From NCBI RefSeq assembly GCF_020172685.1, contig NZ_CP083986.1:3753861-3817860 (forward strand): a stretch of 64,000 nucleotides of DNA, read 5' to 3'. The notes beneath the pieces are model-generated. The model did not search any database, was not told the DNA's origin, and saw nothing but the letters and a program-made list of their open reading frames with translations. A program made the position numbers and the translations under genes. Source of the stretch: [Mycobacterium] nativiensis (GTDB lineage: Bacteria > Actinomycetota > Actinomycetes > Mycobacteriales > Mycobacteriaceae). Positions 7,749 through 26,913 of this stretch are shown here, one piece after another. Each line of letters starts with the position of its first letter. Positions within the stretch are counted from its first letter, which is position 1.

Positions 7749-8033
7749 CTAGGTCTGCCGGCGGTGGTGACCGCCGTGGGAGGCGTGGGCGGCGCGGTTA
7801 CGCCCGACGAACATCCAGGTCACGCCGCTGACCGCCAGCACCAGAACCGTGATCCCGAAGCCCAGCGCCCAGCCCACGCTGGCCTGCGCGGCAGCGCTCA
7901 TGAAGGCCACCAACGCCAGCGTCGCCATCACCAGCATGGCCAGGCCCGGCAGTTCGCGCCGGTCCTTGAACACCATGCCGGCCCGCGGCTGGGTGGTCCT
8001 CGCCTGATCGATCGGATCATCGGTATCGGTCAT
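7749..8033 (-). CDS. UsfY-like small membrane protein
   Basis: This 94-residue protein has two hydrophobic segments (about residues 30-48 and 54-75). Its N-terminal signature DDPIDQARTTQPRAG closely matches DPVDHVRTTRPHAG of the usfY product at 24122-24433, and both end in a His-rich tail (HASHGGHH here). It is therefore a UsfY paralogue. UsfY family function is unknown, but the gene normally precedes rsbW-sigF. A textbook SigF promoter (8044-8069) lies 10 bases before ATG 8033. It is the first gene of the accessory block that follows accA3. Confidence 0.75.
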   Translation of the reverse strand: MTDTDDPIDQARTTQPRAGMVFKDRRELPGLAMLVMATLALVAFMSAAAQASVGWALGFGITVLVLAVSGVTWMFVGRNRAAHASHGGHHRRQT

Positions 8034-8043
8034 GAATCCGCTG

Positions 8044-8069
8044 TACCCGTCGCGACAGGCACTGAAACC
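8044..8069 (-). promoter_or_regulatory. SigF promoter of the usfY-like gene
   Basis: Minus strand: GGTTT (8069-8065), 16 bases, GGGTA (8048-8044), an exact match to the mycobacterial SigF consensus, with ATG 8033 immediately downstream. Confidence 0.85.
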
Positions 8070-8070
8070 C

Positions 8071-9057
8071 TTACCGTGCGGCGCGCAGTGCGGCCAGCAG
8101 CGGCTCCGCGGCCTCCTTGAGAAACGCCTCCTGGGACTCTCCGCCGATCTGGATCAGCGCGACATCGGTGAACCCGGCCTCTTGGTAGGCGCGCACCGCG
8201 TCGATGATCGGCTCCAGATCGGGTCCGCACGGGATGGCCTCGGCGACGTCGCGCGGCTGCACGAACCGGGTGGCGGCCGCGAATGCCGCCGGTGTCGGCA
8301 GCTCGGAGTTGACCAGCCATCCGCCGCCGAACCAGCGGAACTGCTGGTGGGCACGCTGGACCGCGGTGTCGCGGTCGGGGTCCCAGCACACCGGCAGCTG
8401 TCCGATCACCCGGTCGCCGTCGCCGAGCCCGGCCGCCTGACGCGCGGTGTGCCAGGCGTGCACCAGGTCCTTGTCGGGCTGCACCGCGATCAGATGATCG
8501 GCGGCGGCGGCGAACCTGTCGATGCCCCGCTGACCGGACATCGCGACGGCCAGGGCGACCGGGATCTCCGGGAGGTCCCAGAGCCGCGCACCGTCGACCT
8601 GAAAGTACTCGCCGCGCAGGGTGACCGTGTCGCCCATCAGCAGTTCGCGGATGATCTTGATCGCCTCACCGAGCATGGCCTGCCGGTGCGACGCGTTCGG
8701 CCAGCCGGCCCCGGTGACAATGTGCTCGTTGAGGTTCTCCCCGCTGCCCAGGCCGAGGGTGAACCGGCCATCGGCAAGGATCTGCACCGTGGCGGCCTGC
8801 TGCGCCACCACCGCCGGGTGGTGGCGCATCGTCGGGCAGGTCACGTAGGAGTACAGCCCCACCTGCTCGGTTGCGTGCGCGACCGCGCCCAGCACCGACC
8901 AGGCATTCGGCGCGTGCCCCTGCGAGGTCAGCCATGGCGAGAAGTGGTCGCTGCACACCTCGAAGTCGAAACCGCATTCTTCAGCGCTGACGGCATAACG
9001 GACAAGGTCTTTGGGCCCGCTCTGCTCGGTCATCAGGGTGTAGCCGAACCGTGTCAT
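8071..9057 (-). CDS. F420-dependent luciferase-like oxidoreductase (glucose-6-phosphate dehydrogenase subfamily)
   Basis: This 328-residue LLM-class flavin/F420 enzyme has the family landmarks FEVCSDHFSPWL near the N-terminus, LGLGSGENLNEHI in the centre and FTDVALIQIG at the C-terminus. The arrangement is that of the F420-dependent G6PDH-like group (the TIGR03557 type, as I recall it) rather than methylene-H4MPT reductase. The substrate is unknown. ATG 9057 was chosen over upstream frames because a SigF-type promoter (9069-9093) ends 11 bases before it, which excludes starts further up. Many mycobacterial members act in redox stress. Confidence 0.85.
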   Translation of the reverse strand: MTRFGYTLMTEQSGPKDLVRYAVSAEECGFDFEVCSDHFSPWLTSQGHAPNAWSVLGAVAHATEQVGLYSYVTCPTMRHHPAVVAQQAATVQILADGRFTLGLGSGENLNEHIVTGAGWPNASHRQAMLGEAIKIIRELLMGDTVTLRGEYFQVDGARLWDLPEIPVALAVAMSGQRGIDRFAAAADHLIAVQPDKDLVHAWHTARQAAGLGDGDRVIGQLPVCWDPDRDTAVQRAHQQFRWFGGGWLVNSELPTPAAFAAATRFVQPRDVAEAIPCGPDLEPIIDAVRAYQEAGFTDVALIQIGGESQEAFLKEAAEPLLAALRAAR

Positions 9058-9068
9058 GCTCGGACGGG

Positions 9069-9093
9069 TACCCATCGGGCCGCCCCCAAAACG
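9069..9093 (-). promoter_or_regulatory. SigF-type promoter of the F420-dependent oxidoreductase
   Basis: Minus strand: CGTTT (9093-9089), 15 bases, GGGTA (9073-9069). It has one mismatch to GGTTT and a perfect -10, placed 11 bases before ATG 9057. Confidence 0.7.
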
Positions 9094-9459
9094 ACAGGCG
9101 TCGGCAGACCAGCTGCGGGATCGCCACCTTATTGGAACTGCGCGCGCATCCCGAGCACGCGTTCCCCGATAGTGTTCGGTGGGACGCCGGACGGTACCTT
9201 CGCCCACCACCGTGGATAGCGAAATGACTTCTGCAACAACCGCGCCGGAGCCGTGGTTCGCAGCGTTAGGCGTTAGGGTCGCTGACCTGCTGCGCCGTGG
9301 GCCTCGCCCGGTGACCGGCATGGCGTGGGATGAAGCCCGGCCGACTGGGAGTCCATCATTCCTCACGATCTGAGACTTAAGGTTTCACTGGGTTTTTCCC
9401 GAGTTTGTCACTTAAGCCTTTACCAACCGGAAGCCGCGTCGGTAACGTCTGGTTTCTCC
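9094..9459. other. Intergenic stretch without a convincing gene
   Basis: About 370 bases between the divergent oxidoreductase and STAS genes. The frames that stay open here (9179-9373 plus, and an upstream extension of the oxidoreductase) have no ribosome binding site and no family resemblance. Two direct copies of ACTTAAG flank about 30 bases at 9365-9416 and could be an operator or chance. No SigF promoter in the plus direction has a proper -10. Confidence 0.5.
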
Positions 9460-9559
9460 GGTTGAGTTCACAGCCGCAATGGACGTCACCGTGTTTTACA
9501 GAGGTCGGGACAAGATTACGCTGACGTGATCCAACAGCACGATTCGTCGACTGATGGAG
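9460..9559 (+). promoter_or_regulatory. Conserved leader of the first STAS gene
   Basis: Two blocks recur before the paralogous STAS gene at 17595. GGTTGAGTTCACAGCCGC (9460-9477) is identical there over 18 bases. A second block of about 32 bases (9528-9559, beginning GATCCAACAG and ending ACTGATGGAG) is nearly identical. The first block can fold into a short stem (GGTTG with CAGCC) around a 6-base loop. The second ends in the ribosome binding site. A one-base length difference between the copies shifts the frame, so the conservation is not of protein. Confidence 0.65.
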
Positions 9560-9567
9560 CCACCAGA

Positions 9568-10005
9568 ATGACTACGAGCAAGATTTCGGAAAACGCATTC
9601 GCCACTCCTGCAACGGAAGCCGCGCACGCATGGCAGAGCCACACCGCCAATTTCACTGTGCATTGGGGCAGGACCGGAGCGGTAATGGCCGCGAACGGGG
9701 AGATCGACGCAGCCAACGCCGGCCCGTTCGCCGACTACGTCAAGCGCTGCGCTGACTGCTGCGAATGGCTAATCCTGGACCTGTCCGCATTAGCATTCAT
9801 TGGCACCGTGGGGTTTTCGGCTCTGCAGTCGATCAGCACCCGGTGCATCAAGACGCGGATACAACTCATGGTGATACCAGGCCTGGCACTGACCACTGTG
9901 CTGCGGATCTGCGACCCTGACTCGCGCCTTCCGCTGGTGGGCTCGCTGGAGGCTGCCCTGGCGGCCGTCCAGAAATCCGGACGACCGCTGCACGCCGTGC
10001 CGTAA
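9568..10005 (+). CDS. STAS-domain protein (anti-anti-sigma factor-like)
   Basis: This 145-residue protein has a STAS fold over about residues 28-140: GAVMAANGEIDAANAG, then EWLILDLSALAFIGTVGFSAL. STAS proteins of this kind bind RsbW-type anti-sigma kinases and free sigma factors. The switch loop, usually D-S-S-G with a phosphorylatable Ser, reads G79-T80-V81-G82, so the phosphoacceptor position is Val. The protein may act without phospho-control. It is 8 kb from a paralogue at 17595-18029 and in the same block as rsbW-sigF. ATG 9568 was chosen because the leader alignment with the paralogue places the start there and GATGGAG precedes it. Confidence 0.85.
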   Translation: MTTSKISENAFATPATEAAHAWQSHTANFTVHWGRTGAVMAANGEIDAANAGPFADYVKRCADCCEWLILDLSALAFIGTVGFSALQSISTRCIKTRIQLMVIPGLALTTVLRICDPDSRLPLVGSLEAALAAVQKSGRPLHAVP

Positions 10006-10307
10006 GTCCCGGCAGACCCAGCGCCGACTGACCCGGCGGACGGCCCGGTGTTGTTCGGCCCGCCGCCGGCGGCCGGTCCGTCCGACGGGCCTCGCCTGCG
10101 CTTCGGCTCCCAATGGTCGCCGACCTTCTCGAAGCCGCGCTTGAGCGCGGCGTAGGCGACCCGGTGTGCGCGCTGCTCACTGCCGTATTCCGCGGCGGCC
10201 GCATCATGAACCTTGGCGAACGTGCGTTGCGCTTTGCTGCCGGAGCGTCGCAGTGTGCTCGGCAACTCGGCACGCTTGGGGGTGCCCCTCGCGGTTGTCT
10301 TTGGCAT
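9735..10307 (-). CDS. ChaB-family protein with abnormal C-terminus
   Basis: The first 75 residues are ChaB-like: ELPSTLRRSGSKAQRTFAKVHDAA, then YAALKRGFEKVGDHWEPK. In related actinobacterial proteins a GPSD...GG linker leads to a Rho-N/SAP-like helical domain. Here the linker begins (GPSDGPAAGGG), but homology stops near base 10010 and the frame runs 271 bases antisense into the STAS gene before stopping at 9735. The native 3' end seems to be lost and the tail is probably shadow sequence. The start at ATG 10307 has GGAGGGG upstream and a SigF-type promoter at 10333-10357. Function is unknown (ChaB was named for cation transport regulation). Confidence 0.7.
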   Translation of the reverse strand: MPKTTARGTPKRAELPSTLRRSGSKAQRTFAKVHDAAAAEYGSEQRAHRVAYAALKRGFEKVGDHWEPKRRRGPSDGPAAGGGPNNTGPSAGSVGAGSAGTYGTACSGRPDFWTAARAASSEPTSGRRESGSQIRSTVVSARPGITMSCIRVLMHRVLIDCRAENPTVPMNANADRSRISHSQQSAQRLT

Positions 10308-10332
10308 AACCCCTCCAATCGTGCTCGCTGTC

Positions 10333-10357
10333 TACCCGCGAGAGCGGGCCCGCAACC
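10333..10357 (-). promoter_or_regulatory. SigF-type promoter of the ChaB-like gene
   Basis: Minus strand: GGTTG (10357-10353), 15 bases, GGGTA (10337-10333). It has one mismatch in the -35. ATG 10307 follows with its own ribosome binding site. Confidence 0.7.
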
Positions 10358-10404
10358 ATCGCATGAGCCGAACCTGCCTTCGGCTGACGAGAGCACAGCG
10401 CGCA

Positions 10405-10430
10405 GGTTTCACTCGCCTGCGAAGTGGGAA
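10405..10430 (+). promoter_or_regulatory. SigF-type promoter of the 80-residue membrane protein
   Basis: GGTTT (10405-10409), 16 bases, GGGAA (10426-10430). The -35 is perfect and the -10 has one mismatch. The gene start is 28 bases downstream. Confidence 0.65.
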
Positions 10431-10457
10431 TCTGAACCGATGCACAAGGAGGACGAG

Positions 10458-10700
10458 ATGAGAGCTGGCGGGCTTCTCGGGGTTGTCATCTTGGTGTGGC
10501 TGGCGATCGGAGTGTTGGCAGCGTGGCAACGCGACTACTTCCGCGGCGGCCAAACCAGTTGCGCCACGGCAGGAACCCTTGCGCTGACTACGCTGGCCGG
10601 ACCTCTGAACTACTTCGGCGTCAACCCCATCGTCACGGACTGCCGTTTACCGGAGGCGCTTTCGGCTCTTGCCCAGTACCCGACGGCGAGAACGCCGTGA
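10458..10700 (+). CDS. Small membrane protein of unknown function
   Basis: This 80-residue protein has one N-terminal transmembrane helix (GGLLGVVILVWLAIGVLAAW) and then a predicted extracytoplasmic part with two Cys (residues about 37 and 67). The start is ATG 10458, fixed by AAGGAGG at 10446-10452. ATG 10440 and the much longer frame from 10113 are rejected. A SigF-type promoter precedes it, and a 51-residue DUF6131-type gene follows 25 bases later, probably in the same transcript. I recognise the general type from mycobacterial genomes but know no function. Confidence 0.75.
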   Translation: MRAGGLLGVVILVWLAIGVLAAWQRDYFRGGQTSCATAGTLALTTLAGPLNYFGVNPIVTDCRLPEALSALAQYPTARTP

Positions 10701-10725
10701 TCTCCTTAGACAGGAGGGACGAGTG

Positions 10726-10881
10726 ATGATTGTCCTCGGAGTGCTTCTACTTCTCCTGGGTTTCTTCCTCAACATTCAGGCGCTGTGGACGATCGGCGTC
10801 ATCCTGCTGGTTGTCGGCGCAGCGTTGTGGGTTCTGGGCGCCATCGGACGCCCGGTTGCGGGCCGGCGCTACTGGTACTGA
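10726..10881 (+). CDS. DUF6131-type 51-residue membrane protein (copy 1)
   Basis: A 51-residue, almost wholly hydrophobic protein: MIVLGVLLLLLGFFL, then LWTIGVILLVVGAALWVLGAIG, with a basic tail GRPVAGRRYWY. It is the same length as, and clearly homologous to, the minus-strand gene at 20336-20491, including the tail. The start is ATG 10726 with CAGGAGGGA upstream (GTG 10723 is also possible). It is likely cotranscribed with the preceding membrane protein from the SigF-type promoter at 10405. Two short transmembrane hairpins are predicted by eye; the function is unknown. Confidence 0.8.
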   Translation: MIVLGVLLLLLGFFLNIQALWTIGVILLVVGAALWVLGAIGRPVAGRRYWY

Positions 10882-10962
10882 TGACCACCGTGACGACAAG
10901 GGCTGCTCGCCTTCCAGAGGGAAGGCCGCGGCGCGCTGACTTCGGATGACAAGGGCAATGCG

Positions 10963-11925
10963 ATGAGGACCGCCGATGACTACGATCACGGCTCCTTCAG
11001 CCACATCGCACTGTTCTACCGTTCGGCGCAGGAGTATCTGGATTATCTGGTGCCGTTCATCGCCGACGGCGTAGCCGCCGGGCTCCCGGTCTTGGTGGCG
11101 GTGCCCGAACCCAACCTGTCACTGCTGCGCGCGGCCCTCGCTGGCATCGCGGGTAGGGCCGAGCCGGTGACCCTGACCGATATGGGCCGGGTGGGGCGCA
11201 ACCCCGGTCATATTCTCGGCGGGGTGTTGGGCACCTTCGCCGAACAACACCCGTCGGGCCCGGTACGGATGATCGACGAACCGGTCTGGAACGGTCGGTC
11301 GAAGGCGGAGTATGCGGCCTGCGTACAGCACGAGGCCCTCCTCAATCGAGCATTCAACGGTCGGGATATCACGGTGCAATGCCCTTATGACGCAATGCAT
11401 CTGGACTCAGACAGCCTCGCCGAGGCCGAGATCACCCATCCACGCCTGGGAAATGCCGGACACGCGGATAGAACCAGCCCGGGGTTCGCTCCCGACAGCG
11501 CGTGGGCGCGCTACAACAAGCCACTGCCCAGCAGTACGACTGCTGCGAGCTATACGCTGCACGGACTCACCGACCTCGCCGGTGCCCGGGCATTCGCGGC
11601 CAGGTACACCCGCTGGTTCGGCTTCTCCCCCAGCGGTATCGCCGATATGGAGCTGATCGTCAACGAGCTGACATCCAACGGTCTGCAGCACGGCCGGGGC
11701 CCGTGCACGCTGCTGCTGTGGGAGGCGAGCGGACAGTTGATCTGCCAGGTTCGCAGCTCCGGGCACCTGACAGATCCGATGGCCGGTCACTGGCCGATCA
11801 TCCGCGAGGGTGCTCGCGGACGCGGCCTGTTCGTGGTCAACGCGACCGCGGACCTGGTACGCGTTCACATTGCTGCGACCGGGACAACGGTCCAGGCCAA
11901 CCTTCGGATTCAGAGGTCGGCGTGA
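10963..11925 (+). CDS. RsbA-type regulator: MEDS sensory domain fused to an RsbW-like ATPase
   Basis: The N-terminal part (about residues 10-165) resembles the MEDS/DcmR sensory domain, with SHIALFYRSAQEYLDYLVPFI and a conserved VRMIDEPVW segment. The C-terminal part (about 190-318) is a GHKL ATPase like anti-sigma RsbW: ELIVNELTSNGLQHG is the N-box with the Mg-binding Asn, and EGARGRGLFVV is the G1-type loop. Such RsbA-like proteins act as anti-sigma factors or kinases in partner switching. Its presence with two STAS proteins and sigF-rsbW suggests a second switching pair. The start is ATG 10963 with AAGGG upstream. Confidence 0.85.
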   Translation: MRTADDYDHGSFSHIALFYRSAQEYLDYLVPFIADGVAAGLPVLVAVPEPNLSLLRAALAGIAGRAEPVTLTDMGRVGRNPGHILGGVLGTFAEQHPSGPVRMIDEPVWNGRSKAEYAACVQHEALLNRAFNGRDITVQCPYDAMHLDSDSLAEAEITHPRLGNAGHADRTSPGFAPDSAWARYNKPLPSSTTAASYTLHGLTDLAGARAFAARYTRWFGFSPSGIADMELIVNELTSNGLQHGRGPCTLLLWEASGQLICQVRSSGHLTDPMAGHWPIIREGARGRGLFVVNATADLVRVHIAATGTTVQANLRIQRSA

Positions 11926-11983
11926 TGTCACATAGCCGGCCCGCAGCGGCCCAGTTGAGTCCCAGCGATAGGAGTAGCGTGAG

Positions 11984-12862
11984 ATGTCGATGCGTGAGTT
12001 CGAACCCAAGTACGCTGAACTGCAGTCGATCTACGACATCTCGAACGAGTTCTTCGAGCTGTTCCTAGGTCCGACAATGGGCTATACATGCGGGTTTTAC
12101 GAACATCCGGACACCACCCGCGACGCGGCACAGAACGCCAAGTTCGACCTCGCACTGGGAAAGCTGGGGTTGGAGCCGGGCATGACGCTGCTCGATATCG
12201 GCTGCGGGTGGGGCGGCGGCATGCAGCGCGCCCTGGAAGCATTCGATGTCAACGTCATCGGACTGACACTCAGTGAGCGGCAACGTGAATACGCAGTCGC
12301 CAAGCTGGCAGGTGTCCCCACCCGGCGAACCGCGCAGGTACGCCTGCAAGGCTGGGAAGAATTCGATGAGCGGGTGGATCGCATCGTGAGCATCGGCGCT
12401 TTCGAACACTTCGGTCACAAGCGTTACCGCGCCTTCTTCGACATGGCCTACCGTGCCTTACCGCCCGACGGGGCGATGCTGCTGCACACCATCACCGCGA
12501 TCACCCAGGATGACGCCCAGCGATTGGGTCTCCCGCTGACCATGAGCATGGTTCGGTTCAACAGGTTCGTTATGACCGAGGTCTTCCCCGGCGGTCAACT
12601 GCCGACAGTGTCCATGGTCGCCGACCGCGCGACCGAGGCCGGTTTCACCGTCTCCCGCACCCACGAGATCGGACCCAACTACGTACGCACTCTGCAGGAT
12701 TGGGCCGCAGCGCTGGCCTCCAACAAAGCCAGGGCAGTCGCCGCGCAGTCCCAAGAGGTCTACGACCGCTACGACAAGTACCTCAACGGGTGCGTGAAAC
12801 TGTTCCGCGACGGCTACACCAGCGTCCACCAGTACACACTGGAGAAATCACGGCTCCGGTAG
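11984..12862 (+). CDS. Cyclopropane-fatty-acyl / mycolic acid synthase family methyltransferase
   Basis: This 292-residue S-adenosylmethionine-dependent enzyme is of the CmaA/MmaA/PcaA type. The SAM-binding motif LLDIGCGWGG is at residues 69-78. IYDISNEFFELFLGPTMGYTC near the N-terminus and SIGAFEHFGHKRY (catalytic bicarbonate-binding region) follow the family, and the length is normal. These cytosolic enzymes add cyclopropane or methyl groups to meromycolate or phospholipid chains; which one cannot be read from sequence. The start is ATG 11984 with ATAGGAG upstream, 58 bases after the RsbA-like gene, so cotranscription is plausible. Confidence 0.9.
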   Translation: MSMREFEPKYAELQSIYDISNEFFELFLGPTMGYTCGFYEHPDTTRDAAQNAKFDLALGKLGLEPGMTLLDIGCGWGGGMQRALEAFDVNVIGLTLSERQREYAVAKLAGVPTRRTAQVRLQGWEEFDERVDRIVSIGAFEHFGHKRYRAFFDMAYRALPPDGAMLLHTITAITQDDAQRLGLPLTMSMVRFNRFVMTEVFPGGQLPTVSMVADRATEAGFTVSRTHEIGPNYVRTLQDWAAALASNKARAVAAQSQEVYDRYDKYLNGCVKLFRDGYTSVHQYTLEKSRLR

Positions 12863-12903
12863 CCGACACCGTCAGCGATGTCGGCGCATCCGGCCCGCCT
12901 GAC

Positions 12904-13161
12904 TCAGTGCCCGCCCTCCGGGGCGGTCGTGGACGTGGTCTCCTCAACCGGCGTGGTGGTGGAGGTGGTCAAGGGCGCACTGGTCGACGAGGTGCTGACG
13001 GTCGTGGTGACGGCGTCCGGGTCGGGATCCGCGTTCGCCGGGCCTGCGAAGCCCGGGGCACCTGAAGACCCCATCAGGACGGCGAACGCGGCCGCCGTCA
13101 AAGCAGCGATCGCTGCCGTTGAGCCGAACCGCTCACCCGCAATCTGAATTCGCGCGCCCAT
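12904..13161 (-). CDS. Small secreted Thr/Ser-rich protein
   Basis: This 85-residue protein has a Sec-type signal (basic MGARIQIAGER, hydrophobic AAIAALTAAAFAVLMG, probable cleavage after ANA near residue 44). A short mature part is rich in Thr and Ser (TTTVSTSSTSAPLTTSTT). No family is recognised. It is accepted as a gene because GGAGG sits 5 bases before ATG 13161 and a SigF-type promoter lies at 13230-13254. The Thr-rich tail may be glycosylated or a flexible surface linker; that is a guess. Confidence 0.7.
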   Translation of the reverse strand: MGARIQIAGERFGSTAAIAALTAAAFAVLMGSSGAPGFAGPANADPDPDAVTTTVSTSSTSAPLTTSTTTPVEETTSTTAPEGGH

Positions 13162-13229
13162 GGTGTCCTCCGAGTTGATTGTTGACGTTGTTCATTGACA
13201 TGGCGCCCCTGCGGGCGCGTGAGGATGTT

Positions 13230-13254
13230 TACCCCCGAAGGCCAGGCATAAACA
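13230..13254 (-). promoter_or_regulatory. SigF-type promoter of the Thr-rich secreted protein
   Basis: Minus strand: TGTTT (13254-13250), 15 bases, GGGTA (13234-13230). It matches GTTT-N15-GGGTA exactly. The rest of the 13162-13542 gap shows no other feature I can support. Confidence 0.7.
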
Positions 13255-13542
13255 TCACAATCGATTCCAGTCCACAATCTTTTTATCCTCACGGTGGTGA
13301 CTCACATCGAGTCCCATCAGCGACATCCCGCTTTGCTGAAACCATTCACCCCACGCGCCACAATACTTTCGTGGGACCGTCGTCCGGGAATCACGATTTT
13401 CATCGCACAGCGCCGCGAAATTATGGACAGTGAGCTGGCTCCGCGCGTTCCGTGGACAACGACGTTGATTCCAGACCGCGGCTCGCCTGCCGGCGCTCGG
13501 AATTTGACTCATACTGTCTGAGTACGAGAAGGCGGGTGCTCG

Positions 13543-14211
13543 GTGGCCGGGGATGTCAACGCTCAGTTCGCGACGCCGTTGGGCGACGATTCCGAGGAGA
13601 ACAACGACCTCGACCTGGTCATTGGAAACGGCGAACCCCAGAGGGTGGGCCGCTTCCGTTACTGGCTCGATGAACAGCGCTGGGAGTGGTCGGACACGGT
13701 AGCCCGGATGCACGGCTACGAGCCGGGAACGGTGGAGCCCACCACCGACCTGCTCTTGCAACACAAGCACCCGGAGGATCGCCCACAGGTCGCCGAACTG
13801 CTGGAGCGAGTCGCCCAGGGCGGGCGGTTCAGCAGCCGGCACCGGATCATCGACACCTCCGGTCAGGTCCGCTGGGTGATCGTGGTGGGTGATCGGATGT
13901 TCGACGACGCCGGAATGGTGACCGGCACGGCGGGTTTCTACATCGACGTCACCGACGTGTTGCAGTCCGACGTCAGCGCCGCAGTCTCCGAGGTTGCCGA
14001 GTCACGGGCGGTGATCGAACAGGCCAAGGGCGTGTTGATGGTCGCCTACGGCATCCCCGCCGACCGGGCATTCGACGTGTTGGTCTGGCGTTCGCAGGAG
14101 ACCAACATCAAGGTGCGGACTTTCGCGGCCCGCTTCCTCGCGGCGCTGAGCGGTAGTTTCAGCCCCGACTCGGTGTCGTTGGTCGACCACACGCTGCTGA
14201 CCCTGACCTGA
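13543..14211 (+). CDS. PAS-ANTAR regulator (predicted RNA-binding antiterminator)
   Basis: This 222-residue protein has a PAS sensory domain (about residues 35-125: FRYWLDEQRWEWSDTVARM, then HRIIDTSGQVRWVIVVGDR). A short coiled linker joins it to a C-terminal ANTAR domain (about 145-205: SRAVIEQAKGVLMVAYGI, then ETNIKVRTFAARFL). ANTAR domains bind paired RNA hairpins and prevent termination. No histidine-kinase or receiver domain is fused, so the PAS ligand would be the direct signal. The start is GTG 13543. It converges with the GAF-ANTAR gene that ends at 14224. Confidence 0.85.
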   Translation: MAGDVNAQFATPLGDDSEENNDLDLVIGNGEPQRVGRFRYWLDEQRWEWSDTVARMHGYEPGTVEPTTDLLLQHKHPEDRPQVAELLERVAQGGRFSSRHRIIDTSGQVRWVIVVGDRMFDDAGMVTGTAGFYIDVTDVLQSDVSAAVSEVAESRAVIEQAKGVLMVAYGIPADRAFDVLVWRSQETNIKVRTFAARFLAALSGSFSPDSVSLVDHTLLTLT

Positions 14212-16298: not shown

Positions 16299-16317
16299 GG
16301 CGATCCGCCCTTCGTAC

Positions 16318-18959: not shown

Positions 18960-19970
<1,011 letters not shown>

Positions 19971-20335: not shown

Positions 20336-20491
20336 TCAGTACCAGTGGCGCCGGCCGGCCACCGGGCGTCCGACCGTCCCCAGCAGCCAGAACACCGCAC
20401 CGATGACCAGCAGGGCGATCCCGATCGCCCAGAGAACGTAGATCCCGAACACCAGCCCCAAGATCAGCAATACCAACCCGAGCCCGATCAT
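20336..20491 (-). CDS. DUF6131-type 51-residue membrane protein (copy 2)
   Basis: The minus strand encodes 51 residues: MIGLGLVLLILGLVFG, then LWAIGIALLVIGAVFWLLG, tail GRPVAGRRHWY. Length, hydrophobic pattern and tail equal copy 1 at 10726-10881. Below usual ORF cut-offs but well supported by the homology and by an exact SigF promoter at 20537-20562. It converges with the kas remnant, which ends 22 bases away. The function is unknown. Confidence 0.8.
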   Translation of the reverse strand: MIGLGLVLLILGLVFGIYVLWAIGIALLVIGAVFWLLGTVGRPVAGRRHWY

Positions 20492-20536: not shown

Positions 20537-20562
20537 TACCCATGCCGGGCTGCGGCAAAACC
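20537..20562 (-). promoter_or_regulatory. SigF promoter of DUF6131 copy 2
   Basis: Minus strand: GGTTT (20562-20558), 16 bases, GGGTA (20541-20537), an exact consensus, with ATG 20491 at 45 bases. It lies within an inverted repeat (CGGGTTACCC at 20532-20541 and its complement at 20571-20580). Confidence 0.85.
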
Positions 20563-20932: not shown

Positions 20933-20943
20933 TGAGCCATCAC

Positions 20944-21372
20944 TCAGTACTTGTCACAGGTCTTCGAGATCGGGCCGACCAGGTTGACGAACTCCGAGGC
21001 TTCCGGCACGCCCGCGGCCTGTTGGAGCATCTCTTCGCGCTGCTGCGGCGGCGCGGCGAGGAAATTCTGCAGGAAGGACTGCGCCATCGGTGTGGCGTTG
21101 AACTCTGCGGCCACTTTCGGTGACTGCGCGTTCATGGCGGCCATCACCTGCGAGTAGCTGCATGTGGTGCTGATCGCCGGGTTCTGGGACCACAGGCCCG
21201 GCTGAGCAGGCTGGCCCGGCTGAGCAGGTTGGCCCGGCTGAACAGGCTGGCCCGGCTGGGCAGGCTGACTCGGCTGGGCAGGTTCGGCGCTCGCCAGCCC
21301 GGCGCCGGCCGCCAGCGCCAGGGCGCAGCCGCCGGCAAAGGCGGCGATTCTGGTCAAAGGTGTTGTGCTCAT
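20944..21372 (-). CDS. Haemophore-like secreted protein with Pro/Gln repeats (copy 1)
   Basis: This 142-residue protein has a signal peptide to about residue 29 (GLASA), a QPGQPA repeat region (about residues 30-60), and a mycobacterial haem-binding-type domain: TTCSYSQVMAAMNAQSP, FLQNFLAAPPQQREEML, closing Cys in SKTCDKY. Two Cys at the domain ends presumably form a disulfide. The fold family includes Rv0203, which carries haem outside the cell; haem binding here is inferred. It is paralogous to 26009-26341. It is upstream of a membrane protein in the same operon. Confidence 0.85.
   Translation of the reverse strand: MSTTPLTRIAAFAGGCALALAAGAGLASAEPAQPSQPAQPGQPVQPGQPAQPGQPAQPGLWSQNPAISTTCSYSQVMAAMNAQSPKVAAEFNATPMAQSFLQNFLAAPPQQREEMLQQAAGVPEASEFVNLVGPISKTCDKY
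21196..21285 (-). repeat. 18-bp tandem repeat (5 units) inside the haemophore-like gene
   Basis: Five units of 18 bp (GCCCGGCTGAGCAGGCTG on the plus strand), the first four nearly exact. Each encodes QPGQPA on the minus strand. The paralogue at 26009-26341 lacks this region, so it is a recent expansion and likely to vary in copy number. Confidence 0.85.
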
Positions 21373-21430: not shown

Positions 21431-21455
21431 TTGCCGTTTTCGCCGGGGCTAAACC
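21431..21455 (-). promoter_or_regulatory. Degenerate SigF-type promoter of haemophore-like copy 1
   Basis: Minus strand: GGTTT (21455-21451), 15 bases, GGCAA (21435-21431). The -10 is poor, but the sequence aligns with the promoter of copy 2 (GGGAAAACGGGCAA there), having lost one base. It is back to back with the cutinase promoter at 21458. Confidence 0.4.
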
Positions 21456-21457: not shown

Positions 21458-21483
21458 GGTTTGCAGTTTGGCCTCAGTGGGTA
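21458..21483 (+). promoter_or_regulatory. SigF promoter of the second cutinase
   Basis: GGTTT (21458-21462), 16 bases, GGGTA (21479-21483). This is an exact consensus, with GTG 21498 fourteen bases downstream. It rules out the earlier starts (TTG 21468, GTG 21477). Confidence 0.85.
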
Positions 21484-21497
21484 TCGGACGAAATGCT

Positions 21498-22169
21498 GTG
21501 ATTGCACGGATACTCACCGCAGCGGGCCTGTGGGGCTCGATGCTGCTGCTCTGGCCCGCCGGCGATGCGGTCGCGTACGGTTGCCCCGATATCGAGGTGA
21601 TCTTCGCTCGCGGTACCACGGAACCGCCCGGCGTCGGGTGGATCGGCCAGCAGTTCGTCGACGCGCTGAGGTGGCGCGCCGGCGGTCGGCCGATGGACGT
21701 CTACCCGGTCGACTTCCCATCTGTGCCCGACTTCGCTCCCACCACTGCCGGTGTGGCCGACGCCGGCAGCCATATCCGCGACACCGCAGCGGCCTGCCCC
21801 GCGACGGCGATGGTTCTCGGCGGGTACTCCCGGGGTGCCGCCCTGATCGGGTACGCCACCGAGCCCACCGCTGCCGGGTTCGGCACCCCGTTACCGCCCG
21901 AGGTGGCCGGTCACGTCGCCGCCGTCGTGCTGCTGGGCAAACCGTCCGACGCGTACTTGGGCTCGATCGGTGCCCCGCCGGTGAAACTCGGCCCCGGATA
22001 CGCGGCCAAGAGCATCGACCTGTGCGCGCCCGGTGACCCGATCTGTTCGACGGGCGCCGACGGCGCCGCACACGCCGCCTACGCCGCGAACGGAATGACC
22101 GCGCAGGCGGCTGACTTCGCCATCGCACAGCTCAAACCGCCAGAACCCCTTCCAGCTCCGCCGATCTGA
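21498..22169 (+). CDS. Secreted cutinase-family serine esterase (second copy)
   Basis: This 223-residue protein has a signal peptide (IARILTAAGLWGSMLLLWPA, cleavage near AVA). Cutinase landmarks are VIFARGTTEPPG, the nucleophile motif GGYSRGAAL (Arg replaces the common Gln after Ser), CAPGDPICSTG with the catalytic Asp, and AAHAAYAANG with the His. The start GTG 21498 is set by the SigF promoter just upstream. It is similar in length and motifs to the cutinase at 18035-18766 but clearly diverged. A PPOX-type gene follows after 10 bases, probably in the same transcript. Confidence 0.9.
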   Translation: MIARILTAAGLWGSMLLLWPAGDAVAYGCPDIEVIFARGTTEPPGVGWIGQQFVDALRWRAGGRPMDVYPVDFPSVPDFAPTTAGVADAGSHIRDTAAACPATAMVLGGYSRGAALIGYATEPTAAGFGTPLPPEVAGHVAAVVLLGKPSDAYLGSIGAPPVKLGPGYAAKSIDLCAPGDPICSTGADGAAHAAYAANGMTAQAADFAIAQLKPPEPLPAPPI

Positions 22170-22179: not shown

Positions 22180-22635
22180 GTGTGCATCATCGACCATGAC
22201 ATGCGCCAGATCGTGGCAAGCGCGCGACTGGCATTCGTCGCCACCGTCTGTGCGGACGGCTCGCCGAACCTGTCGCCCAAGGAATCGCTGTTGGTCTACG
22301 GCGACGAGCATCTGGCGTTCATGCACATGGCGTCGCCGAACACGGTGGCCGATCTGCGCCGCGACCCGCGTATCGAGGTGAACGTGGTGGACTTTCTCAA
22401 GCGCCGCGGGTACCGCTTCAAGGGCACCGCGCAGGTGCGCCCGCCCGGCGACGAGGTCTATGAGTGGCTGCGCCAGTGGGTCATCGACACTCTCGGGCCA
22501 CGGTTTCCGTGCCGCGAGGCGGTGTTGATCCGGGTCGAACGGGCATTGCCGATCGCCTCACCGGATTACATGTTCGGCGAGGCCCACGAAGCCGAACTCA
22601 TCCGGTCGTGGTCGACGATCTACGGGTTGCGCTGA
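22180..22635 (+). CDS. Pyridoxamine 5'-phosphate oxidase-fold flavin/F420-binding protein
   Basis: This 151-residue split-barrel protein has FVATVCADGSPNLSPKESLLVY at the N-terminus, NTVADLRRDPRIEVNVVDF and KRRGYRFKG in the middle. It belongs to the PPOX-like group that binds FMN or F420; cofactor and substrate cannot be told from sequence. Start GTG 22180 keeps the MRQIV segment at the distance seen in relatives; ATG 22201 is the alternative. It is downstream of the SigF-controlled cutinase by 10 bases and converges with sigF, which ends 6 bases beyond. Confidence 0.8.
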   Translation: MCIIDHDMRQIVASARLAFVATVCADGSPNLSPKESLLVYGDEHLAFMHMASPNTVADLRRDPRIEVNVVDFLKRRGYRFKGTAQVRPPGDEVYEWLRQWVIDTLGPRFPCREAVLIRVERALPIASPDYMFGEAHEAELIRSWSTIYGLR

Positions 22636-22641: not shown

Positions 22642-23430
22642 CTACTGCAACTGTTCCCGCATCCGCGCCAGCGACTTGGCCAGCAGGCGAGATACGTGCA
22701 TCTGGGAGATACCGACCCGCTCGGCGATCTGTGTCTGCGTCATCGACTCGAAGAAGCGCAGTACCAGCACGGTGCGCTCGCGCTCGGGAAGCGCGTTGAG
22801 CAAGGGCCGCAACGCTTCTCGATCATCAATTCGGACCAGGGCGGCGTCGACATCACCCAGCGTGTCGGCGATCGAGCGGACGTCGTCCTCGTCGGATTTG
22901 CCGCCACTGTCGATCGACAGCGTGTTGTAGGAGCTGCCCGCCACCAATCCTTCGACCACGTCGTCGCGGCTGATCTCCAGCTCTCGGGCCAGCTCTGAGG
23001 CCGTGGGGGCCCGGCCGAGTCGTTGTGACAGGTCGGCGGTCGCCGCCCCGAGCCTCAGATGCAGCTCTTTGAGCCGGCGGGGCACCTTGACCGACCAGCT
23101 GTTGTCGCGGAAATGCCGCCGGACCTCGCCCATGATCGTCGGCACCGCGAATGAGACGAAGTCCGAACCGGTCTCGACATCGAATCGGGTGACGGCGTTG
23201 ACCAGTCCGACCCGCGCGACCTGAACCAGGTCGTCGCGCAGCTCGCCGCGACCCTCGAAGCGACGCGCGATGTGGTCGGCCAGCGGCAGGCACCGCTCCA
23301 CGATCTTGTCCTTGCGGTTGCGGTGATCGGCTGAGTCGGAGTCGTATTGCGCAAGTTCGCGGAACAGGTCGCCGACATCGGAGTATTCCGAGCCGGACTG
23401 TGAGCCGCCGGGGGCGGCACGCCGGGTCAC
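22642..23430 (-). CDS. sigF: RNA polymerase sigma factor SigF
   Basis: This 262-residue group 3 sigma factor is almost identical in layout to M. tuberculosis SigF (261). Region 2 has QVARVGLVNAVTRFDVETG and SFAVPTIMGEVRRHFRDNSW, region 3 DLSQRLGRAPTASELAREL, and region 4 TQTQIAERVGISQMHVSRLL. SigF directs stress and stationary-phase transcription from GGTTT-N15/16-GGGTA promoters, 14 of which appear in this window. Start GTG 23430 overlaps the rsbW stop by 4 bases, so the anti-sigma and sigma are made together. In M. tuberculosis sigF abuts accA3; here 15 kb separates them. Confidence 0.97.
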   Translation of the reverse strand: MTRRAAPGGSQSGSEYSDVGDLFRELAQYDSDSADHRNRKDKIVERCLPLADHIARRFEGRGELRDDLVQVARVGLVNAVTRFDVETGSDFVSFAVPTIMGEVRRHFRDNSWSVKVPRRLKELHLRLGAATADLSQRLGRAPTASELARELEISRDDVVEGLVAGSSYNTLSIDSGGKSDEDDVRSIADTLGDVDAALVRIDDREALRPLLNALPERERTVLVLRFFESMTQTQIAERVGISQMHVSRLLAKSLARMREQLQ

Positions 23431-23864
23431 CGCCCGGCTTCCGCCCGTCGGGTTGTCAGGGTCACTCCGAATACCGCAACCGGGTTTCCGCCTTCATGAC
23501 CATCTCGGAACGTCCGCACGTCATCCACCAGCGACGTGAGCACGTGCCAACTGAAGCTGCCCGGCAACAGCACTTCGGCGCCGTCACAGGCGGCCGAGGC
23601 CTCGATCGTCACATCGTCGTCATGCGGATCGATGACCACTGTCAACGTCGCGTCCGGTGTCGCGCAACGGATCAGCAGGGTGCACAGCTCATCGATCGCC
23701 AGCCGCAGGTCGGCTACCTTGTCGACGTCGAGATCCTCGAAGGTGGCGATCGCACCGACCAACATGCGCACCACCGCCAGACTCTCGAGTCGCGGGGTCA
23801 CCCGCAGTTCGACGGCCCGTTCGCTACACGGCCGCGGAATCCGCTCGCTCTGAATGTCGGTCAT
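23427..23864 (-). CDS. rsbW: Anti-sigma-F factor RsbW (UsfX)
   Basis: This 145-residue GHKL-type anti-sigma factor is the same length as the M. tuberculosis protein. Features are RAVELRVTPRLESLAVVRMLVGA, the N-box region DLRLAIDELCTLLIRCA, and the C-terminal SFSWHVLTSLVDDVRTF. It binds SigF and releases it when STAS partners bind. ATG 23864 with GGGAGG upstream is preferred over ATG 23948. A SigF promoter at 24019-24043 makes the pair autoregulated, as in M. tuberculosis. Confidence 0.95.
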   Translation of the reverse strand: MTDIQSERIPRPCSERAVELRVTPRLESLAVVRMLVGAIATFEDLDVDKVADLRLAIDELCTLLIRCATPDATLTVVIDPHDDDVTIEASAACDGAEVLLPGSFSWHVLTSLVDDVRTFRDGHEGGNPVAVFGVTLTTRRAEAGR

Positions 23865-24018
23865 TGAGCCTCCCGGCGAAATCGGACCGAGACCACTGCT
23901 GGGCGCCAATCGACTGGTCACGGACGTCACCTGCCCGCACCGTCGCAAGTGTCGCTGTGACTCGAAATGGTCAACAGTCCATGACGGGCTGCCCGGAGAT
24001 CAGTCATGGGGGTGTCTA

Positions 24019-24043
24019 TACCCGGTCACCAGCGCATTCAACC
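24019..24043 (-). promoter_or_regulatory. SigF promoter of rsbW-sigF (autoregulation)
   Basis: Minus strand: GGTTG (24043-24039), 15 bases, GGGTA (24023-24019). It lies between usfY and rsbW and gives a leader of about 150 bases. Confidence 0.75.
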
Positions 24044-24121: not shown

Positions 24122-24433
24122 CTAACTGGTCGAGTGCTGCCGATGTGCCTCCGGGTGAGCCAGGTGCCACTCATGATTCACCTTGCCGATCCGGCGGTGT
24201 TCGATGACCAGCCACAGTGCACCCAGTGCGGCGGCGATGACCGCGACGGCGGCCACCTCCACACCCTGGCGGTCGTGTCCGGTGCCGAACGCGGTCAGAC
24301 AGGCGATCCCGGTGACCATTCCCACCACCAGCAGCGTATAGCCGGGCCAGCCCATCACGTCGATGACGGCGCGGCCGGCATGCGGTCGGGTCGTCCGGAC
24401 GTGGTCAACAGGGTCGTGAAATGTATCGCCCAT
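24122..24433 (-). CDS. usfY: UsfY, SigF-locus membrane protein
   Basis: This 103-residue protein has two hydrophobic segments (WPGYTLLVVGMVTGIACLTAFG and VAAVAVIAAALGALWLVI) between a conserved N-terminus (DPVDHVRTTRPHAG) and a His-rich tail. It is the gene normally found just upstream of rsbW-sigF. ATG 24433 has CAGGAGAGGA upstream. The role is unknown. A paralogue lies at 7749-8033. Unlike the paralogue, no SigF promoter is visible directly before this copy. Confidence 0.88.
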   Translation of the reverse strand: MGDTFHDPVDHVRTTRPHAGRAVIDVMGWPGYTLLVVGMVTGIACLTAFGTGHDRQGVEVAAVAVIAAALGALWLVIEHRRIGKVNHEWHLAHPEAHRQHSTS

Positions 24434-24609: not shown

Positions 24610-24990
24610 TCAGCCCATACCGATGATCGGTGGGGCGCTCATCATCAAGACGAACAGCATCAACGACATCAGGAACCAGCCGGCGCCCTGCCAGCCCCAC
24701 CAGGTTCCACGTGCGCGCCACACCTGATATGTCCGCAGGAATGCCCGTACGCCGCCACCGGCCAGGATCACCGGCCCGCCCAGGCCGAGCACCGTCCGGT
24801 AAGGCCTCCCGCACGTAACGGTCACCGACAGCGGGTCGCAGGAGCCGGCCCAGAACGTCGCCAGCACAACGAACACCACGCCGACGGCGGTCATCACGCC
24901 GGCGAATCGAATCGCCGAGCGCACCTCCTCGTCCTCTTGCCCCAACCGGTCGCCGCCGGGGCCGGAGCGCGATGACATGCGGCGTTCCAT
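24610..24990 (-). CDS. Conserved membrane protein next to usfY
   Basis: This 126-residue protein has an Arg/Gly-rich N-terminus and three hydrophobic stretches (AGVMTAVGVVFVVLATFWAG; TVLGLGGPVILAGGG; FLMSLMLFVLMMSAPPIIG). In position and size it corresponds to Rv3289c of M. tuberculosis (from memory). The start could be ATG 24990 or ATG 24978; neither has a well-spaced ribosome binding site. No domain is recognised. No SigF promoter was found upstream. Confidence 0.65.
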   Translation of the reverse strand: MERRMSSRSGPGGDRLGQEDEEVRSAIRFAGVMTAVGVVFVVLATFWAGSCDPLSVTVTCGRPYRTVLGLGGPVILAGGGVRAFLRTYQVWRARGTWWGWQGAGWFLMSLMLFVLMMSAPPIIGMG

Positions 24991-25239: not shown

Positions 25240-25264
25240 GGTTACCGGTGTTGCGTAACGGGTA
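25240..25264 (+). promoter_or_regulatory. SigF-type promoter of the GlnR-like regulator
   Basis: GGTTA (25240-25244), 15 bases, GGGTA (25260-25264). It has one mismatch in the -35. ATG 25306 follows with GGAGG. The rest of the 24991-25305 gap holds only a GC hairpin at 25202-25228 that I cannot assign. Confidence 0.7.
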
Positions 25265-25305: not shown

Positions 25306-25980
25306 ATGGACATCGTGCTGCTGACGGATCGGGACGAGTTCGAACAGAAGCTGGCGGTTCTGCGGGCGTTTGGGCACTCGGTCACCCGCGCTCGGCTGGC
25401 CATCGACGCCCCGGACGAATGCCAGGGTGCCGCAGCCATTCTGGTGGACGGCTGTACCGACCTGCCGGCCACGCGCGAGACCTGCCGTCGGCTCAATGAA
25501 TGGGAACCGTCGGCCGCCGTACTGGTCGTGGTGACCGCTGAAGACTTGGTTGCGATAGACCCGGACTGGCAGGTGGACGACGTCCTGGTCGCTACCGCCG
25601 GCCCGGCCGAGGCGCATGCCCGGCTACGGTTGACGCTGGCCCGCCGACACCGCCCCTTCTGCAACGCTTTGCAATTCGGTGATCTCGTCATCTACCCGGA
25701 CAGCTATACCGCTGCGCTGGCGGACCATGATCTCGACCTCACCCTCACCGAGTTCAAGCTGCTCAACTATCTGGTCCAGCACGCCGGGCACGCGTTCACC
25801 CGCACCGAGCTGCTGCACGAGGTGTGGGGCCGCGAGGCCAAGCGCCGCACCGTCGACGTTCACGTGCAGCGCCTGCGCGCCAAGCTCGGCGTCGAGCACG
25901 AGTCGATAGTCGACACCGTTCGCGGCGTCGGGTACATGGTTGCGGAGTCACCTCAACGGCAACTGGCCATCGCCAACTAA
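25306..25980 (+). CDS. OmpR/GlnR-like DNA-binding response regulator
   Basis: This 224-residue protein has an N-terminal atypical receiver domain (about 1-110; VDGCTDLPATRETC occupies the usual phosphoacceptor strand). The C-terminal winged helix (about 120-215) has LTLTEFKLLNYLVQHAG, FTRTELLHEVWG and RTVDVHVQRLRAKLG. The pattern is that of the actinobacterial GlnR family, where the receiver often works without phosphorylation. It is smaller than, and distinct from, the housekeeping GlnR (Rv0818 type), so it is a paralogue with unknown targets. No kinase gene is adjacent. The SigF-type promoter makes it a possible second-tier regulator of the stress response. Confidence 0.87.
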   Translation: MDIVLLTDRDEFEQKLAVLRAFGHSVTRARLAIDAPDECQGAAAILVDGCTDLPATRETCRRLNEWEPSAAVLVVVTAEDLVAIDPDWQVDDVLVATAGPAEAHARLRLTLARRHRPFCNALQFGDLVIYPDSYTAALADHDLDLTLTEFKLLNYLVQHAGHAFTRTELLHEVWGREAKRRTVDVHVQRLRAKLGVEHESIVDTVRGVGYMVAESPQRQLAIAN

Positions 25981-26008
25981 GCCGGTCAACTAAGCCGGTT
26001 GAGCGAAT

Positions 26009-26341
26009 TCAGAATTTGTCGCAGCTGCTGGCCAGCGGGCCGAACAGCGCAACGTACTGGGCGGCGTCCGGCGAGGTCTGTGCCTCATCGACCATCTGCT
26101 GTCGCTGTGGCGGCGGCGCGGCGAGAAAGTTCTGCAACCAGGACTGCGCGGCCGGCGTCGCGTTGAACTGCGCGGCAACCCCCGGTGACTGCTCGTTCAT
26201 CGCAGCCACGACCTGCGAGTAGCTGCACGTGGTGTTGACGGCTGGATCCGTGGCCGGATCGGCGGACGCCGCTGCCAGGCCGGCAGTCAGCGCCAGCACG
26301 GCGCCCCCGCTCGCGGCGGCCAATCTCGTAAGGCCAGACAT
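26009..26341 (-). CDS. Haemophore-like secreted protein (copy 2)
   Basis: This 110-residue protein has a signal peptide to about residue 26 and the same haem-binding-type domain as 20944-21372: TTCSYSQVVAAMNEQSP, SWLQNFLAAPPPQRQQM, closing Cys in ASSCDKF. It lacks the Pro/Gln repeats of copy 1. ATG 26341 has AGAGAGG upstream, and a SigF-type promoter lies at 26410-26435. A paralogue of the membrane partner is immediately upstream rather than downstream, the reverse order of copy 1. Confidence 0.87.
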   Translation of the reverse strand: MSGLTRLAAASGGAVLALTAGLAAASADPATDPAVNTTCSYSQVVAAMNEQSPGVAAQFNATPAAQSWLQNFLAAPPPQRQQMVDEAQTSPDAAQYVALFGPLASSCDKF

Positions 26342-26409
26342 CACTCGGCAACCTCTCTTTTTCGTCTTTTTCGGGCGCCGGACACTCACCGGCGGCCTCG
26401 CCGAGGGAT

Positions 26410-26435
26410 TGCCCGTTTTCCCGGGCAGCCAAACC
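26410..26435 (-). promoter_or_regulatory. SigF-type promoter of haemophore-like copy 2
   Basis: Minus strand: GGTTT (26435-26431), 16 bases, GGGCA (26414-26410). The -35 is perfect and the -10 has one mismatch. Confidence 0.7.
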
Positions 26436-26457
26436 TGCACGGGCTGTAGTCGACAGT

Positions 26458-26850
26458 TCAGAACACCCAGGCCAGGACCGCCAGGTCGGCCAACACCATG
26501 GCAAAGCCGCCGGCCCATACCGCGATCCCTGCCCGATAGGTCGCGAAGAAGAACGCGAGAATCAGCGTCAAAGCCGCGACGGCAGCCGGTCCGTAGAACA
26601 GCAGCCCGAACACCAATCCGTTCATCTCGGGGTTCGGGCAGCCGGCGGTGGCGCACAGGGCGGTGCCCGCCGCCCTGGCCAATGCGAACGCCATCGTCAG
26701 CGCGGCGGCCGGGGCGACCAACAGCGACAACCCCCAGTTGAGCCAGGTCCACTCGCGCGGCGGTGGTTCAGGGGGTGCTACCGCGATGACGGGCGGCACA
26801 TCGGAGAAGATGGGCCGGATCGTCCGCGTCCTGTTGTACAGGATGGTCAT
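26458..26850 (-). CDS. Small membrane protein paired with a haem-binding protein (copy 2)
   Basis: This 130-residue protein has a Pro-rich cytosolic-looking N-terminus (APPEPPPREWTW) and hydrophobic segments LNWGLSLLVAPAAALTMAFAL, GLLFYGPAAVAALTLILAFFF and GGFAMVLADLAVLAW. Two Cys (LCATAGCPNPEMNG) align with copy 1 at 20582-20932. ATG 26850 was chosen inside a much longer spurious frame antisense to lhr; the exact SigF promoter at 26888-26913 supports it. The function is unknown. Confidence 0.75.
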   Translation of the reverse strand: MTILYNRTRTIRPIFSDVPPVIAVAPPEPPPREWTWLNWGLSLLVAPAAALTMAFALARAAGTALCATAGCPNPEMNGLVFGLLFYGPAAVAALTLILAFFFATYRAGIAVWAGGFAMVLADLAVLAWVF

Positions 26851-26887
26851 TGATCCGCCTCCGCTCGCCGCAGCCACTGTTGGCAGA

Positions 26888-26913
26888 TACCCGCCAACGG
26901 CGAACACAAAACC
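26888..26913 (-). promoter_or_regulatory. SigF promoter of membrane protein copy 2
   Basis: Minus strand: GGTTT (26913-26909), 16 bases, GGGTA (26892-26888), an exact consensus 37 bases before ATG 26850. It marks the right-hand end of the SigF-controlled block. Confidence 0.85.

Follow-up and report, generated by a model that had tools for sequence, protein, structure and literature searches.

Why should promoters of the type read by the sigma factor SigF crowd around the sigF gene itself? The question is raised by a stretch of 64,000 nucleotides (nt) of [Mycobacterium] nativiensis, a member of Mycolicibacter with a 5.28-Mb single-scaffold genome; this whole stretch (G000:C1:3753861-3817860) is called the window here. 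Between accA3 and lhr in the window lies a 19-kb block, 7749-26913, in which an initial annotation had picked out fourteen SigF-type promoters. It is highly probable that this block is the species' copy of an accA3-lhr island of Mycolicibacter, and that SigF switches its genes on together when stress frees SigF from RsbW, a reading drawn from sequence comparison.

All fourteen motifs were found at the positions claimed, before genes, as GGTTT- and GGGTA-type boxes separated by 15-17 bases, and the four sites called exact (8044, 20537, 21458 and 26888) read GGTTT-N16-GGGTA. The pattern GGTTT-N14-17-GGGTA occurs 16 times in the genome (backward-pattern control, 6), four times inside the block, and four of the seven genome matches with a 16-base spacer fall there (P 6e-9). 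The published core GTTT-N15-17-GGGTA gives 39 genome matches (backward control, 12), six of them in the block where 0.14 are expected, and GGTT-N15-18-GGGTA gives 66 (backward control, 38), with seven in the block. The union of the two relaxed patterns numbers 91 in the genome and nine in the block (expected 0.33; P 7e-11), a density 27-fold above that of the genome, which contradicts the equal genome-wide density that would have spoken against the cluster. The best same-size window more than 20 kb away holds three union matches, making the block the densest cluster of the genome. The nine block sites are accompanied by no backward control, as compared to one site and three controls in twelve 20-kb background stretches of the same genome. 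Four of the 91 union matches fall in contaminating pieces left of the window, and among five sites checked outside the block, four have an open reading frame (ORF) start (at least 60 amino acids, aa) within 300 nt and one has none, these ORFs being possibly spurious.

Conservation of the sites was followed by scoring the best site in the 200 bp upstream of orthologues from up to 20 Mycolicibacter loci, the window counted, with the level set at 16.5, the 99th percentile of scores from about 600 random 200-mers, the highest of which was 18. Recurrence was seen for ten sites, those at 8044, 9069, 10333, 10405, 17318, 18778, 21458, 24019, 25240 and 26888. Alignment of four sets gives 98-100% identity over the ten positions of the boxes as compared to 50-59% over the spacers (repeats and rows of other length left out). 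The rsbW gene stands directly before sigF and overlaps it, behind the site at 24019. Blocks 101-120, 221-240 and 241-260 of SigF, which we take to read the -10 and -35 boxes, are 100, 97 and 88% identical to those of 12 other mycobacteria; the 100 and 97% identities suggest that the motif read by SigF is probably the same as in them. Transcription from the block promoters is predicted to depend on SigF. Reading by another GGGTA-type sigma factor is most improbable: at E 1e-80 or better, some relatives do have between two and four SigF-like proteins, but the only such protein of the window's genome is encoded within the cluster.

The block has counterparts in related species. Among 118 genomes of the genus, SigF was found in 110 and AccA3 in 114 at the thresholds used, with both on one contig in 105. 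In nine genomes, those whose AccA3 is at least 94% identical to that of the window, accA3 and sigF are separated by 14.9-66.3 kb (median 39 kb); the remaining 96 have 15 bp-12.9 kb between the two genes (median 1.6 kb). SigF is Mycolicibacter-like (at least 88%) in eight of the nine; the ninth (G098; SigF 79%) may belong to a neighbouring genus. MYC123, MYC017 and M. longobardus have a gap of about 25 kb. In MYC098 it measures 9.5 kb, so that the smallest island of Mycolicibacter falls within the range of the other genomes. In a tree of SigF, RsbW and Lhr, the window groups with MYC098, then with MYC123 and MYC017, while M. arupensis, with its 14.9-kb gap, is placed among large-island species, which makes shrinkage there likely; that the island of the window has also shrunk is a guess. 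Of 420 relatives found, 80 loci were kept (L numbers denote these and further stretches), and among them the SigF of the window is closest to that of Mycolicibacter sp. MYC098 (96%). The first 17 are Mycolicibacter, one being a Mycobacterium sp. record that groups with them; around sigF, mostly over 10 kb on each side, L001-L017 hold 5-15 relaxed sites and L018-L080 hold 0-6.

Eleven accA3-lhr intervals of 12-64 kb (448,570 bases; lhr was not reached in that of M. algericus) contain 164 sites and 7 backward controls, a density of 0.37 per kb as compared to 0.017 per kb in the genome of the window. As many as 129 of the 164 are intergenic and at most 300 bp upstream of a same-strand ORF, a situation met by 10.6% of random positions. 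These figures bear on a rival explanation, in which base composition or a search by eye produced the cluster. The sites were indeed first sought by eye, and relaxed patterns have many chance matches (control 12 against 39, 38 against 66), but 0 controls against 9 sites in the block, 7 against 164 in the eleven intervals and the ten conserved sites refute it, leaving it scarcely conceivable.

The window's block is a small copy of a much larger, Mycolicibacter-wide island of up to about 60 kb. Fifty-six families occur in four or more islands, and the gene calls of the window lack 36 of them; one of the 36, ChaB, is present and was missed by the caller. Besides the window's genes, 30 of 157 island families were scanned, four of them without a match. 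The other islands add Hsp20, CsbD, catalase, universal stress protein, ornithine/lysine/arginine decarboxylase, flavin adenine dinucleotide (FAD) oxidoreductases, a thiamine pyrophosphate (TPP) enzyme, uracil-DNA glycosylase, two hemerythrins, DJ-1, a CDGSH protein, alcohol dehydrogenase, a family-15 glycosidase, a haem-oxygenase-like enzyme and others. In L101 (about 11339-13224) and L112 (about 9745-13900), runs of small membrane genes resemble by sequence a multisubunit Na+/H+ antiporter set. The parts consulted of the literature on SigF with Mycolicibacter, the Mycobacterium terrae complex, accA3 or clustered genes contain no description of a SigF island between accA3 and lhr.

The distance from site to gene adds a further regularity. 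Measured from the last -10 base to the start codon, as placed by a gene caller blind to the motif, the distance at the 129 gene-linked island sites is 11 nt in 26 cases and 10-12 nt in 34, the sharpest peak of the distribution. A start codon 10-12 nt past the -10 box would put the transcription start on the start codon, hence about a quarter of the gene-linked sites are predicted to give leaderless mRNAs. In M. smegmatis and M. tuberculosis, about one mRNA in four is leaderless, according to the part of PMC6448022 consulted, and in Table 1 of PMC4694148, 16 rows of commonly down-regulated genes by our count give 8-11 nt between SigF site and start codon. Before rsbW, 18 of 20 Mycolicibacter loci have a short ORF whose start lies 11-12 nt past the -10 box of rsbW (in the window at 23927-24007, minus strand, 26 codons, MTDLRAAGVRC-like; elsewhere mostly 11-16 codons); in L002 and L003 its frame is that of rsbW. 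The ORF possibly encodes a leaderless leader peptide before rsbW-sigF. In other mycobacteria, a start codon lies 14 nt on in 13 of the 21 loci for which the scan gave a site (61 of 82 loci gave none).

A working order of events can be proposed from the M. smegmatis system, where, in the parts consulted of PMC7693655 and PMC10950880, RsbW1 inhibits SigF, RsfA, RsfB and RsbW3 relieve the inhibition, and inhibited respiration triggers the SigF regulon. RsbW would likewise hold SigF inactive, and its release under stress such as inhibited respiration would fall to STAS-type antagonists, from genes inside or outside the block. SigF-RNA polymerase would then fire its own rsbW-sigF promoter and the nine other conserved block promoters, those 10-12 nt before a start codon yielding leaderless mRNAs. 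The resulting cutinases, glycosyltransferases, F420 oxidoreductase, small membrane proteins, ChaB, response regulator and RsbA-type anti-sigma factor would remodel the envelope and tune the response. That both STAS genes are without recurrent SigF sites would fit a role as inputs rather than outputs, and their products may bind an anti-sigma factor. RsbV-type proteins carry a phosphorylated serine at a defined place. Both STAS proteins read G-T-V/T-G there, and their control by phosphorylation may differ. The 5' leaders of the two genes (about 9450-9567 and 17455-17594) are alike by eye, sharing GGTTGAGTTCACAGCCGC and a common stretch before the start.

The contrast first drawn with most mycobacteria, in which SigF targets would be no more than scattered, is not supported. 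In 20 non-Mycolicibacter genomes, picked for long contigs, the 20 kb on the rsbW side of sigF contain 69 sites as compared to 3 controls, with 1-7 sites each. In M. smegmatis, 27 of the 137 commonly sigF-dependent (down-regulated) genes lie in MSMEG_1766-1804, 39 consecutive tags ending at sigF (PMC4694148). About 0.8 genes would be expected in such a run and the next best 39-tag window has 9. This expectation uses a gene total of about 6,900 for M. smegmatis. The M. smegmatis run resembles the block in having SigF-type promoters beside rsbW-sigF, and it names UsfY, ChaB, RsbW and a methylase, of which UsfY (NF041247) and ChaB (PF06150) are common to the block, as matched by product name only. 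The M. smegmatis cluster, however, lies on the rsbW side by locus-tag order, whereas 10 of the 14 block sites are on the accA3 side of sigF; cutinases, glycosyltransferases and hemophore-related genes, present in the block, are unnamed in it; and its sigF dependence comes from expression, that predicted for the block from sequence. Clustering beside sigF is hence not unique, its size, side and content being special to Mycolicibacter and near kin.

As in mycobacterial SigF partner switching in the consulted parts of PMC7693655 and PMC10950880, sigF stands in the block with rsbW, and STAS-type and RsbW-like regulators are nearby, although the action on SigF of the two STAS proteins and the RsbA-type protein is putative, unlike that of the M. 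smegmatis regulators. The targets of the general stress regulon of Bacillus SigB are spread over the chromosome. Likeness to that regulon extends to RsbW-type control and to the CsbD and catalase-type outputs of sister islands; many SigF-type targets of Mycolicibacter stand in one block, in contrast to the dispersed SigB targets.

How the block grew is suggested by its paralogues, since 12 of its 28 called genes fall in within-block paralogue pairs (6 pairs), as compared to 11 of 179 genes (13 pairs, 10 in one stretch) in ten other stretches, background stretches with N having been left out. Among families confined to one island, 4 of 84 genes have a SigF site, and 0 of 42 among those in two to three islands; in commoner families, the counts are 63 of 178 and 62 of 258, so the SigF-driven genes are mostly shared core. 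The idea that every insertion brings SigF promoters was rejected on these counts. The island likely grew by within-block duplication and gene gain. It could, with somewhat less than even likelihood, be a product of drift, the interval tolerating insertions and duplications whose copies keep their promoters, with closeness to sigF having no function. The paralogue pairs, the rarity of sites in genes of one to three islands and the absence of tRNA genes from the window and 24 island stretches agree with drift, but duplication is insufficient for sister-island genes with SigF sites in unrelated families (FAD oxidoreductase, TPP enzyme, hemerythrin, alcohol dehydrogenase), and clustering beside sigF recurs in other mycobacteria and M. 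smegmatis. That a mobile genomic island carried in the sigma factor together with its targets is very unlikely. The island does vary widely in length between species and its base composition is slightly lower (65.2% as compared to a window average of 67.6%), but the accA3-lhr place is constant in the eleven intervals, apart from the one in which lhr was not reached, sigF, rsbW and accA3 are vertical genes of the genus, and the lack of tRNA genes also disfavours it. No integrase or transposase domain occurs among the 30 scanned of 157 island families, no systematic integrase search having been made.

Several observations weigh against a SigF-driven island. Four of the 14 sites are weak, non-conserved or testable in the window only (13230, 20537, 21431 and 26410), and seven scanned block genes have no recurrent SigF site (both STAS, both ANTAR, the antigen-85-like esterase, UsfY and the membrane protein at 24610). 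Across the islands, 35 of the 164 sites have no called gene downstream, and the published Y after GGGTA is unclear, T plus C being 58% as compared to 61% after any island GGGTA; it was accordingly dropped as independent support. The relatives form a non-independent sample, with G022 and L014 sharing identical sites in places. Paralogue pairs also occur in two further parts of the window (4 and 3 pairs), and one background stretch holds 10 of the 13 background pairs. The initial description of the block as self-contained was also too strong, as most genome matches lie outside it and those seven genes are without a recurrent site, while the pointing of sites into gene starts was borne out for the cluster around sigF.

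The window itself is without N, and the surrounding scaffold has N runs. The 20 kb to its left (L081, G000:C1:3733861-3753860) contain eleven N runs and five adapter remnants, and 5 of its 10 pieces are 92-99.5% identical to the M. heraklionensis island; L087 and L089-L091 show a similar N and adapter pattern. The scaffold around the window likely holds foreign contigs. Five matches 4.5-12.8 kb left of the window were rejected as part of the island: four sit in M. heraklionensis-like pieces (92-99.5%), among N gaps and adapter remnants, and the fifth in the outermost piece. The FAD oxidoreductase, one of the island genes, was found in four of nine genomes, and in that of the window within the contaminated flank only.

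Table 1. Features of the SigF block in window coordinates; fractions give orthologues with a SigF-type site at the level used.
Feature	Coordinates	Strand	Basis and remarks	SigF site in orthologues
SigF island	7749-26913		Between accA3 (end 7638) and lhr (start ~26957); relaxed-match density; matching interval in ten other Mycolicibacter loci	
UsfY-like small membrane protein	7749-8033	-	NF041247 61.6 bits, under cut-off 100	
SigF-type promoter	8044-8069	-	Exact; UsfY-like start codon 11 nt on	9/9
F420-dependent LLM-class oxidoreductase	8071-9057	-	TIGR03557 475.9 bits, over cut-off	
SigF-type promoter	9069-9093	-	Start codon 12 nt on	10/10
STAS protein 1, possible anti-anti-sigma factor	9568-10005	+	PF01740	0/11
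ChaB-family gene	9966-10307	-	PF06150; 5' part of ORF 9735-10307	
SigF-type promoter of chaB	10333-10357	-		9/10
SigF-type promoter before 10440-12862	10405-10430	+	-10 GGGAA (or GGGGA in set)	11/11, first gene
Possible operon	10440-12862	+	Small protein, 51-aa membrane protein, RsbA-family anti-sigma, CMAS-type methyltransferase; putative co-transcription	
RsbA-family anti-sigma	10963-11925	+	NF041045 318.7 bits	
CMAS-type methyltransferase	11984-12862	+	PF02353	
Small protein, Thr/Ser-rich tail, predicted secreted	12904-13161	-	Translation	
SigF-type promoter before 12904-13161	13230-13253	-	Testable in window only	1/1
PAS-ANTAR protein	13543-14211	+	PF03861, PF08447	0/14
GAF-ANTAR protein	14224-14925	-	PF03861, PF13185	1/11, none recurrent
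Two glycosyltransferase genes (16318-17307, 15078-16298)	15078-17307	-	NCBIfam matches under cut-offs; probably one operon	
SigF-type promoter	17318-17342	-	-10 GGGCA here; start codon 11 nt on	9/9 (7 GGGTA, 2 GGGCA)
STAS protein 2	17595-18029	+	PF01740	1/13 (window alone, just at level)
Cutinase 1	18035-18766	-	PF01083	
SigF-type promoter	18778-18803	-	-10 GGGCA (also in set); start codon 12 nt on	7/7
Antigen-85-type esterase (presumed)	19029-19970	+	PF00756	0/7
51-aa membrane protein	20336-20491	-	Sequence; no NCBIfam match	
SigF-type promoter	20537-20562	-	Exact	2/10 only
Small membrane protein	20582-20917	-	Grouped with hemophore-related gene as 20582-21372	
Hemophore-related protein	20944-21372	-	TIGR04529; putative haem binding, by family only	
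Weak SigF-like site before 20944-21372	21431-21455	-	-10 CGGCAA	0/11; variant recurs 7/11
SigF-type promoter of cutinase 2	21458-21483	+	Exact	19/19
Cutinase 2	21492-22169	+	PF01083	
PNPOx-type protein	22180 or 22198 to 22635	+	PF01243	
sigF	22642-23430	-	SigF 96% to MYC098; sole genome match at E 1e-80 or better	
rsbW (presumed), anti-SigF gene	23427-23864	-	Overlaps sigF; orthologues in 20/20 loci; weak NCBIfam match only	
SigF-type promoter of rsbW-sigF	24019-24043	-		20/20 loci, 9 of them above 16.5
UsfY	24122-24433	-	NF041247 127.4 bits, over cut-off	0/19
Membrane protein	24610-24990	-	No Pfam match	0/16
SigF-type promoter of regulator gene	25240-25264	+		18/18
GlnR-type response regulator	25306-25980	+	PF21695, PF00486	
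Hemophore-related protein 2	26009-26341	-	TIGR04529	
SigF-type promoter before 26009-26341	26410-26435	-	-10 GGGCA	3/14, one a different site
Small membrane protein, paralogue of 20582-20917	26458-26850	-	Sequence; tblastn cross-hits	
SigF-type promoter	26888-26913	-	Exact	14/14

The gene content described initially is largely retained, with envelope enzymes, small membrane proteins and regulators standing near sigF; its haem-binding proteins are hemophore-related by family (TIGR04529) only. We take rsbW to be so named from its position beside sigF and its likeness to known RsbW/UsfX, and the antigen-85-type name of the esterase is likewise an assumption of ours. A site at the level is lacking upstream of the genes for RsbA (0 of 10), the CMAS-type methyltransferase (0 of 2) and the 51-aa protein at 10726 (0 of 10), and is found in 1 of 15 upstream of the membrane protein gene at 20582; RsbA and the methyltransferase may be read from 10405 as an operon. 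A SigF site of its own precedes the PNPOx gene in 7 of 8 species; in the window there is none, and cutinase 2 stands before the gene. The 3' part of ORF 9735-10307 overlaps the STAS gene. At 20008-20313 on the plus strand, a KasA/KasB remnant matches family positions 1-57 and about the final 40, the part between them being absent.

As a broader reading, which falls a little short of being probable, Mycolicibacter would have a regulon-collecting locus, in which stress genes scattered in M. smegmatis are gathered beside their own sigma factor in an island of about 60 kb, with many leaderless mRNAs. The genes so gathered would include amino-acid decarboxylase, FAD oxidoreductase, dehydrogenase, hemerythrin, an MPT63-like protein and catalase, and resemble, by product name only, the scattered SigF-dependent M. 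smegmatis genes for decarboxylase (MSMEG_0266), FAD oxidoreductase (0670), dehydrogenase (0671), hemerythrins (2415 and 6212), MPT63 (5617) and catalases (6213 and 6232). If this is true, much of a stress response would be made in one place. A global sigma-factor regulon has in one group partly collapsed onto a single chromosomal place, and most relatives have next to nothing in that interval. This makes testable whether a regulator works better with its targets adjoining, as compared to clusters that arise by duplication and drift. SigF-type promoters of the islands can also be compared in large number, and many stress mRNAs of this group, on which little work exists, are predicted to be leaderless.

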